From the NCBI RefSeq assembly GCF_019303495.1, contig NZ_JAEVFI010000015.1, positions 92,434 to 156,433 on the forward strand: a stretch of 64,000 nt of DNA. Reading direction: 5' to 3'. The position numbers and the translations under genes are program-made. The notes under the pieces were generated by a model. The model saw nothing but the letters and a program-made list of their open reading frames with translations. It did not search any database and was not told the DNA's origin. Origin of the DNA: Streptomyces sp. JJ66. GTDB lineage: Bacteria; Actinomycetota; Actinomycetes; Streptomycetales; Streptomycetaceae. Of the stretch, positions 23,506 through 26,104 are shown in pieces; within the stretch, counting starts at the first letter, position 1, and the number at the start of each line of letters is the position of its first letter.

Positions 23506-23533
23506 TTGACTTGGACTAAGTCTAATGTAGGGT
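23506..23533 (+). promoter_or_regulatory. Catalase promoter with CatR/PerR box
   Basis: -35 TTGACT (23506-23511), a 16-base spacer, -10 TAGGGT (23528-23533). Inside the spacer is a 7-1-7 palindrome TTGGACT-A-AGTCTAA (23511-23525), the Fur/PerR box form with one mismatch. A bound repressor would block RNA polymerase, giving peroxide induction. The catR gene could share this control. Confidence 0.8.
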
Positions 23534-23580
23534 CGGCTGTGGCGACAGCCCATGGACAGGACACCCAGCAGGAGGCGAAC

Positions 23581-25047
23581 GTGACTGCTCAGCCCGAGAC
23601 GACCGGTCCGCTGACCACGGAAGCCGGTGCTCCGGTAGCGGACAACCAGAACAGCGAGACGGCGGGAGTCGGCGGTCCGGTCCTCGTTCAGGACCAGCTC
23701 CTGCTGGAGAAGCTCGCCCACTTCAACCGGGAGCGCATTCCGGAGCGCATCGTGCACGCGCGCGGCGCCGGGGCGTACGGCACGTTCACCGTCACTGCCG
23801 ACGTGACCCCCTACACCCGCGCCGCGTTCCTCTCCGAGATCGGCAAGGAGACCGAGGTCTTCCTGCGCTTCTCCACGGTGGCCGGCAACCTCGGTTCGGC
23901 CGACGCCGTGCGGGACCCGCGCGGGTTCGCGCTGAAGTTCTACACCGAGGAGGGCAACTACGACCTCGTCGGCAACAACACCCCGGTGTTCTTCATCAAG
24001 GACGCCATCAAGTTCCCCGACTTCATCCACACCCAAAAGCGCGACCCGTACACCGGCTCGCAGGAGGCCGACAACGTCTGGGACTTCTGGGGCCTGTCGC
24101 CAGAGGCCACCCACCAGGTGACCTGGCTGTTCGGTGACCGTGGCATCCCGGCGTCCTACCGCCACATGGACGGTTTCGGCTCGCACACCTTCCAGTGGAA
24201 CAACGAGGACGGCGAGGTCTTCTGGGTCAAGTACCACTTCAAGACCGACCAGGGCGTCAAATGCCTGACCCAGGACGAGGCCGACAGCCTGGCGGGCCAG
24301 GACCCCGACAGCCACCAGCGTGACTTGCGCGAGTCCATCGAGCGCGGCGACTTCCCGACGTGGACGGTGTACGTCCAGATCATGCCGGCGGCCGAGGCGG
24401 CGAACTACCGCTTCAACCCGTTCGACCTCACCAAGGTGTGGCCGCACGCGGACTACCCGCGTATCGAGATCGGCAAGCTGGAACTCAACCGCAACCCGGA
24501 GAACATCTTCGCCGAGGTCGAGCAATCGATCTTCTCCCCGCACCACTTCGTGCCGGGGATCGGCCCCTCCCCGGACAAGATGCTCCAGGGCCGCCTCTTC
24601 GGCTACGGCGACGCACACCGCTACCGCGTCGGCATCAACGCCGACCACCTGCCGGTGAACCAGCCGAAGGCGGGCCAGGCACGCACCCACGGCCGCGACG
24701 GCGTGATGTACGACGGCCGCCACGGGCGGGCGAAGAACTACGAGCCGAACAGTTTCGGCGGTCCGGCCGAGACCGGCCGCCCGCTGTGGCAGCCGCTGCC
24801 GGTTTCCGGCCCCACCGGTGACCACGAGACGCCCCGGCACGCCGAGGACGACGACTTCGTCCAGGCGGGCAACCTCTACCGCCTGATGTCGGAGGAGGAG
24901 AAGGAGCGCCTGATCGCCAACCTGTCCGGGTTCATCGCCAAGGTCTCGCGGGACGACATCGCCCAGCGCGCGATCGAGAACTTCCGCAAGGCGGACGCGG
25001 ACTACGGCAAGCGCCTGGAGGCCGCCGTCCAGGCTCTGCGCGGCTGA
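23581..25047 (+). CDS. katA: Monofunctional haem catalase
   Basis: 488 residues, the usual length of small-subunit catalases, which turn H2O2 into water and oxygen. Seen: the active-site histidine stretch ([14 protein letters not shown]), the distal Ser/Asn region ([33 protein letters not shown]) and the haem-tyrosine motif [14 protein letters not shown]. There is no signal peptide. GTG at 23581 follows GGAGGCGAAC. Regulation by the divergent CatR is strongly indicated by the box in the promoter. A strong terminator lies at 25161-25200. Confidence 0.95.
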
Positions 25048-25200: not shown

Positions 25201-25272
25201 CGCGTTCGGCGCCGGGCACCCGGCGCGGGGGCGCGCCGGGCCACGCCCCCGCTACCGAACTCTTGCTCAGTG

Positions 25273-25520
25273 CTCCACCCTTCAGGGTGGAGGTGCAGGG
25301 CATCCTTGCGTCGGCGGCCCGGAGGGGCGCAGCGCCACTGCTAACTTGTCCGACAACAAAGTTGTCGGACCTACCGCCGGACGGGCGGGAGGTAAAGCCT
25401 GTGGAGACCTGGTAAGGCCGCTTCTCACCGAGCGGCACGGGTCCGTGAAGCAGGAACCCGCGGTGGCACCGCGTAGCGGTGCGGACCGGAATCGTCGCCC
25501 CTTCAGGGCGACGAGGACGT
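25273..25520 (+). mobile_element. IS200/IS605-type remnant with TnpB-associated RNA end
   Basis: Two hairpins with the same CCCTTCAGGG core stand about 220 bases apart: CTCCACCC/GGGTGGAG (25273-25292) and TCGTCGCCC/GGGCGACGA (25492-25514). The right part (about 25380-25520: GGAACCCGCGGTGGCACCGCG, then GGAATCGTCGCCC and GACGTCAA) closely resembles the 3' end of Streptomyces tnpB genes, which also encodes the omega RNA. No tnpA or tnpB frame remains. It is best read as a non-autonomous palindrome-ended derivative. Left boundary is uncertain. Its right edge abuts and supplies the stop codon of the CBS gene. Confidence 0.6.
25346..25370. promoter_or_regulatory. Nested palindrome inside the IS remnant
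   Basis: GTCCGACAAC (25348-25357) and GTTGTCGGAC (25361-25370) form a perfect 10-base stem with loop AAA. The left part is also TTGTC-C-GACAA (25346-25356), which fits the TNGTNNNACNA operator form of FadR-type GntR repressors. It may be a relic operator or an RNA hairpin. Confidence 0.5.
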
Positions 25521-25957
25521 CAAACGGTGACGGCTCCGGTGCCGCGCGGCGCGGGCGGGACGCCGGTGAGCGTCCAGCAGCGCACGATGTCGCGGACGGA
25601 GACGATGCCGACCGGTTCCCGGTCGTCGAGCACGATCAGGTGACGGAAGCCGCCGTGCGTCATCGCCGCGGCGGCCTCCAGCAGCGTCCAGTCGGGAGCG
25701 GCGAAGACCACGTCGGTGGTGGTGTGGGCGTGCGCGGTCTCCCGGTCCGGGTCCTGGCCGCTGCCGAGGGAGTTCAGCACGTCGCGCTCGGTGAGGATGC
25801 CGAGGCCGCTGGTGTCGGCGTCGAGGACGACGGCCGCGCCGACGCGGCGGGCCGCCATGAGGCAGGCCGCCTGCCGCAGGGTGTGGGTGGGGCCGATGGT
25901 GAGGACCACGGTGGACATGGCGTCGCGTACGAGTTCCGGGCGTCGGGGCTCGGGCAT
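25520..25957 (-). CDS. CBS-domain pair protein
   Basis: 145 residues with two CBS motifs: VRDAMSTVVLTIGPTHTLRQA.. and TTDVVFAAPDWTLLEAAAAM..GIVSVRDIVRCW. Stand-alone CBS pairs bind adenine nucleotides and regulate partners; none is identifiable here. ATG at 25957 is chosen because AAGGAGGTG is 9 bases upstream. The C-terminus (PRGTGAVTV) is low in conservation, and its stop codon lies in the right end of the IS605-type remnant, so the natural end may have been altered by the insertion. Confidence 0.88.
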   Translation of the reverse strand: MPEPRRPELVRDAMSTVVLTIGPTHTLRQAACLMAARRVGAAVVLDADTSGLGILTERDVLNSLGSGQDPDRETAHAHTTTDVVFAAPDWTLLEAAAAMTHGGFRHLIVLDDREPVGIVSVRDIVRCWTLTGVPPAPRGTGAVTV

Positions 25958-26104
25958 GTCAGGTGCCACCTCCTTAGGTGAACCAGTGAAAGGCTTCACA
26001 AGCTCACAAGCGGGTGAGTCTCCATCGTCACACGCGTCCGCTGCGGAGGGTAGACCGCGTGCGGAGCCCTCCCGTCCCCTTCCCGGCGCGGGCCCGGGCT
26101 TCGC

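Follow-up and report, generated by a model that had tools for sequence, protein, structure and literature searches.

The locus and the element

The window, the whole 64,000-nt stretch of Streptomyces sp. JJ66 DNA that was analysed, is part of a single contig (C6) of a 4.84 Mb genome. Between a catalase gene (23506-25047) and a minus-strand gene for a CBS-domain protein (25520-25999) lies a non-autonomous element of 268 nt, at window positions 25256-25523, which follows a CTAC and ends in TCAA, the arrangement seen in IS608-type elements. Its features, in window coordinates, are:

25252-25255, plus strand: CTAC, the target tetranucleotide left of the element and presumed TAM of the empty site.
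25256-25523, plus strand: the whole non-autonomous element, delimited by the sharp ends of the four copies in its own genome and of related copies.
25273-25292, plus strand: left-end hairpin CTCCACCC-TTCA-GGGTGGAG, evident from the sequence.
25314-25330, plus strand: imperfect G+C inverted repeat GCGGCCCGGAGGGGCGC, conserved in aligned copies that retain the left end.
25342-25347, plus strand: TAACTT, a weak candidate -10 box directly 5' of the RNA, judged by eye.
25348-25523, plus strand: conserved omega-RNA-like scaffold (alignment, covariance model, pair counts and homology to tnpB-linked right ends).
25348-25370, plus strand: hairpin of 10 bp, the 5'-most in the conserved RNA (helix 1; 7 of 10 pairs changed on both sides).
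25374-25388, plus strand: hairpin CCGCC-GGACG-GGCGG (helix 2; 98.8% of cells paired, no two-sided pair changes).
25462-25487, plus strand: central covarying hairpin GGTGGCACCGC-GTA-GCGGTGCGGACC (helix 6; 98% of cells paired).
25489-25492, plus strand: GAAT, immediately 5' of the right hairpin, conserved in solo and in many tnpB-linked right ends.
25493-25513, plus strand: right-end hairpin CGTCGCCCCTTCAGGGCGACG (helix 7; 7 of 9 pairs changed on both sides).
25520-25523, plus strand: TCAA, right cleavage site and end of the element, the antisense of which gives the TGA stop of the CBS gene (25520-25522).
25520-25999, minus strand: CBS-domain gene (Pfam CBS), whose stop codon is the insertion site; relatives end a few residues past the domain.
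25524-25539, plus strand: flanking host DNA, the would-be 16-nt guide ACGGTGACGGCTCCGG, placed directly after TCAA.

The letters of the GAAT are identical to those of the right guide motif of IS608. At the position of the candidate -10 box, relatives carry TARGAT or TAGCAT and the window copy is 6 nt shorter; a sigma-70 scan of the element found no promoter.

An earlier, sequence-only reading had placed the element at 25273-25520. There is indeed an element there, but with its ends at 25256 and 25523 that range was slightly short. The two hairpins that it described as sharing CCCTTCAGGG were found again, the left at 25273-25292 and the right at 25493-25513, and its statement that no transposase gene remains agrees with the Pfam search: the two longest ORFs overlapping the element have no match, and thus no transposase or nuclease gene is left. 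It also took the guide from the bases after the right end, correctly as to place but with one A of the TCAA repeated: the right terminus reads GACGTCAA, and the first base after it is A25524, so that the guide reads ACGGTGACGGCTCCGG.

Copies, relatives and the empty site

Four copies, at 94-96%, are present in the element's own genome: besides the window copy there are one on contig C32 and two on C25, and beyond the element borders all four are unrelated in sequence. In multi-copy alignments, YTAC borders most copies at the left. Matches at E <= 1e-12 occur in 32 of 393 Streptomyces genomes. Of 296 genomes of the genus, 13 contain the left-end motif pattern and none the reversed pattern used as control. 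One genome (G283) has at least 8 copies, and since two of these, at unrelated sites, are 99.3% identical, the family has moved recently.

The empty site is known from one of the G283 copies (L182): when its flanks are joined, more than 20 relatives match the query without a break along all or nearly all of its length. The junction reads GCTACTTCG or ACTACTTCG in several relatives, and several empty alleles read CTACTTCG exactly at the element's CTAC / TTCG split point; target, ends and absence of duplication are thereby fixed for the family. No direct empty site for the window copy was found in relatives, where the alignment is confined to the CBS gene, because the intergenic flank is too diverged.

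Several traits expected of a PATE, a palindrome-associated transposable element of the IS200/IS605 family, are found together here: several copies that share their ends and lie at unrelated sites (4 in the own genome; in G283 at least 8), insertion at one short target that is not duplicated (the YTAC and TCAA borders and the L182 empty sites), subterminal palindromes at both ends (25273-25292 and 25493-25513), and no transposase or tnpB gene (Pfam on the ORFs; no TnpB near solo copies). Elsewhere, a plasmid collection gave no match to the element, a phage collection just one weak 75% match annotated as a transposase, and Rfam no family at gathering score for either the window region or its relatives.

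Some copies are altered. Four solo copies with internal or terminal deletions (L043, L082, L174, L187) represent decay stages of the family. At L003 (1501-1775) a copy splits an apparent single gene (DUF72-like by eye), the two parts of which do not join in frame, which suggests a deletion adjoining the insertion. Relatives lacking the left end were seen at two kinds of locus, each in two species. At L026 (1475-1659) and L078 (1500-1684) the RNA lies between two NlpC/P60-type genes (by eye) and is followed by a common terminator-like hairpin; the idea that it is a specially conserved regulatory RNA is weakened by the 89% identity of the whole locus. At L081 and L083 (1472-1656 in both), beside a WYL-type regulator gene (by eye), 25 of 26 would-be guide bases are held in common (ACACGTCACC[G/C]CCGACCCTGGCGGCGC), directly before the sequences diverge, making this pair a candidate for a fixed guide RNA.

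Placement at stop codons

Read in antisense, the CTAC at 25252-25255 is GTAG, with the lost TAG stop of the CBS gene: the joined flanks of the window copy read ...ACC GTG TAG, the protein end is unchanged, and TAG would have been the stop in the empty allele. The present TGA stop comes from the element itself, as the antisense of the TCA in GTCAA. A sister copy (L004) has made the same stop replacement in a THAP4-type heme-binding gene, where the last residue alone is altered.

This placement is very frequent in the family. Among 45 distinct solo right flanks screened, 18 have a clear coding signature entering the element from the right, and in 17 of these 18 the element's TGA is in phase as the stop of the antisense gene (binomial P about 1e-7); the tnpB-linked ends available for comparison are a small set, too few to be informative, with a coding flank in just 1 of 12. 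Two causes are likely: the antisense of YTAC is GTAR, which contains TAG or TAA, and selection removes insertions elsewhere in genes. Insertion at antisense stop codons is nearly harmless to the gene because the TTGA end of the element restores an in-frame stop, and this explains how such elements can persist without gene damage.

A conserved RNA fold

The region is more stable than dinucleotide shuffles of it (z = -4.8; 0 of 200). Across 33 solo RNAs, a structure of 46 pairs has 95% of cells paired, against 88% in shuffles, and two-sided changes affect 22 pairs in 115 cells, against 36 cells in shuffles. Slid versions of the structure reach at most 43% paired; since the structure was in part drawn from this alignment, that control favours it. 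The double changes and the surplus of the counts over shuffles weigh more, although the relatedness of the sequences has to be borne in mind. Helix 6 has four pairs with two-sided changes, and at one of these they occur in 15 of the 33 sequences. Covariation is seen not just in the terminal hairpin, which TnpA would require in DNA form, but also in internal helices (1, 4, 5 and 6). Compensatory changes preserve the RNA fold, internal helices included, and in its paired cells (95%) and two-sided pairs (22) it has the conserved structure to be expected of an omega-RNA. In three loci from different genomes (L046, L070, L071), the loop of the central hairpin carries a palindromic repeat, GGGGGTCCCCC...GAGCGAAG...CTGGGGGAG, at the same point.

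A lineage apart from tnpB-linked ends

The sequence-only reading had likened the right 140 or so bases to the omega-RNA end of tnpB elements, and alignment bears this out: along about 135 nt, the right part is 70-71% identical to each of two right ends of its own genome that are linked to tnpB. The stretch homologous to the 3' end of tnpB plus the right end, a further mark of an omega-RNA, spans about 25397-25523, and the pattern shared with tnpB-linked ends is GGAATC-hairpin-GAGGAYGTCAA. Together with the copies, their boundaries, the empty site of the sister copy and the covariation, this homology upholds the proposed identity as a non-autonomous IS605-type element.

A covariance model was built from an alignment of the 33 solo right parts. 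Above 100 bits it found 51 places in 25 genomes, and a TnpB gene adjoined none of them; below 100 bits, 62 of 69 places tested (61-83 bits) were beside TnpB, this lower class comprising at least 69 places among the matches listed and being thus a sample. Because solo sequences were used to define the high class, part of its high score follows from the way it was built; the informative point is that no tnpB-linked RNA in the genomes scored falls between the two classes. The solos score about 200 bits, the TnpB-linked RNAs of the own genome only 72-79. Among 247 genomes of the taxonomic class, matches outside the own genome reach only 81-98 bits, and no member of the solo class was found there outside Streptomyces, all 13 fetched matches having TnpB sequence alongside. 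A tblastn search with a TnpB query found no homologue in the flanks of solo copies, a search that a strongly diverged one could escape. Judged by sequence, the element belongs to a distinct lineage of solo omega-RNA elements and is not a recent deletion.

Possible partners in the same genome

Intact TnpBs are encoded on contigs C55 and C2 of the own genome (Pfam OrfB_IS605 and TNB domains shown for C55), and a tnpA adjoins the C2 copy. The right end of the autonomous element in the own genome is 70-71% similar (at C2 GGAATC-hairpin-GAGGATGTCAA, in the element GGAATC-hairpin-GAGGACGTCAA), and the left end is not shared. A search with the left-end pattern for an autonomous partner brought up solo copies, remnants and unrelated sequence, and no autonomous element.

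The tnpA genes of C2 and C32 are the likeliest mobilisers. In both (L017, L018) the reading frame is broken by an ambiguous N, at a position common to the two (GCACCGCNGCACCGC), which may be a fault of the assembly. An intact TnpA 40 kb to the left of the window, also on C6, was considered as mobiliser and set aside, the ends of its element being different. As to TnpB, the resident TnpBs have scaffolds very different from the solo ones, which makes compatibility uncertain, and genome G253 has a solo copy, yet no PF07282 protein and no TnpB like that of L005 was found in it.

Possible mechanism and alternatives

Our best explanation, which we regard as probable, is that window positions 25256-25523 are a PATE-like IS200/IS605 copy that has retained only the parts for mobility and for the guide RNA. 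Movement by a TnpA acting in trans seems very probable. That the guide RNA also functions in trans is an evenly balanced proposition; use by a TnpB is possible because the own genome has intact TnpBs with a related right end. By DNA position, the would-be guide flank matches a TAM-adjacent empty site (CTAC-TTCG of L182, in relatives), as the guide of an omega-RNA should.

Beyond the anatomy of the sequence, the steps of such a mechanism are modelled on ISDra2 and IS608. A Y1 transposase (TnpA) supplied in trans would excise a single strand between CTAC and TCAA, and the excised single-stranded DNA would go in behind a new YTAC. Transcription through the right end into host DNA would yield an RNA that ends in a guide for the empty site, here ACGGTGACGGCTCCGG; a TnpB in trans could then cut empty alleles next to CTAC, and repair would copy the element back. 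A bolder form of this proposal, which we advance tentatively, is that these are selfish trans-acting guide RNAs that parasitise both the TnpA and the TnpB of other elements, record every insertion site in their guide and home into empty alleles at the stop codons of host genes, with CTAC serving as both insertion site and TAM. If the RNA does work in trans, the element would be a minimal RNA-guided homing unit of 268 bp, gene-less and a parasite of TnpB, as well as a natural test of how much scaffold divergence TnpB tolerates. The question can already be put to the test, given how cleanly solo scaffolds separate from TnpB-linked ones and given the compensatory changes inside the RNA, in its internal helices.

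Another possibility is that only the DNA matters: the tnpB 3' segment would be a passenger in a miniature element whose right end folds as DNA for TnpA, the guide RNA being unused. TnpA requires hairpins at both ends in any case, the promoter scan was negative, and the G253 copy occurs where no TnpB was detected. Against it stand the covariation of helices 1, 4, 5 and 6, which lie as far as about 175 nt inward of the right end and thus far outside the terminal hairpin, and L081 and L083, which lack the left end and are immobile and still retain paired helices despite their sequence differences; we consider it rather unlikely. A host-adopted regulatory RNA (a TldR-like guide, an antisense RNA or a leader) in place of a selfish element is much less probable again. 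It would fit the relatives without a left end that are inherited with their flanks (L026/L078 and L081/L083), and at stop codons a solo RNA would be antisense to the 3' end of the gene; against it, the window copy has both ends, three sister copies at unrelated sites and a guide of its own, as befits a mobile element, and no TnpB-like gene was found beside the leaderless variants. Least credible, and already contradicted by sequence comparison, is recent origin by internal deletion from an autonomous element that the own genome still harbours. That genome does have tnpA/tnpB elements with a similar right end, but identity to them is just 70-71% and the left ends differ, the solo RNAs of different species fall into a single class of high scores (51 places, no TnpB), and in no case was tnpA or tnpB found next to the solo left end.

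Comparison with known systems

Among non-coding RNA families, Rfam HgcC (RF00062) gives a weak match at 25416-25536 (E = 0.03) that includes the CCUUCAGGG hairpin and the GAGGACGUCA end; at 22 bits, against a gathering score of 50, it is a lead only. TldRs are RNA-guided transcription factors derived from TnpB, and their guide RNAs are likewise of TnpB type and separated from an active tnpB. Unlike these, the Streptomyces element is mobile and multi-copy, and no TldR-like protein was found beside it. For IscB and TnpB elements, omega-RNAs that act in trans or stand alone have been proposed. The tnpB-linked elements of the own genome (C2, C55 and C29) have the right end GGAATC-hairpin-GAGGATGTCAA, with CTAC as left flank at C2 and C32; they differ from the solo copies in left end, in right-end sequence (70-71% identity) and in model score (72-79 against about 200 bits).

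The closest mechanistic models are ISDra2 and IS608, which insert 3' of a short target without duplication, as here (TTAC in IS608, YTAC in this family; PMC8612924). The ISDra2 TnpB takes a 16-nt guide from flanking DNA and cleaves next to the target motif, and the likeness extends to a right-end RNA of about 150 nt, a guide in the flank and a target motif that is also the TAM (PMC8612924). Unlike either, the Streptomyces element has neither tnpA nor tnpB, and its function in trans is a prediction.

In the open-licence literature, no description was found of a solo lineage that spans several species and has a diverged, covarying scaffold of its own, or of stop-codon placement of such elements. 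There is a precedent for the layout: a PATE-like element of Halanaerobium hydrogeniformans has a left-end hairpin, no tnpA, the last 58 nt of tnpB and an entire right end, and for PATEs, movement by a transposase supplied in trans is presumed (PMC7290912). The order of parts (left end, tnpB tail, full right end) is the same in the Streptomyces element. The Halanaerobium element is one copy in one genome, with no guide RNA analysed; the Streptomyces element belongs to a multi-species family, whose covarying RNA has diverged from all tnpB-linked ends tested. PATE-like IS605 derivatives are thus already known, and the Streptomyces family joins them as a variant.
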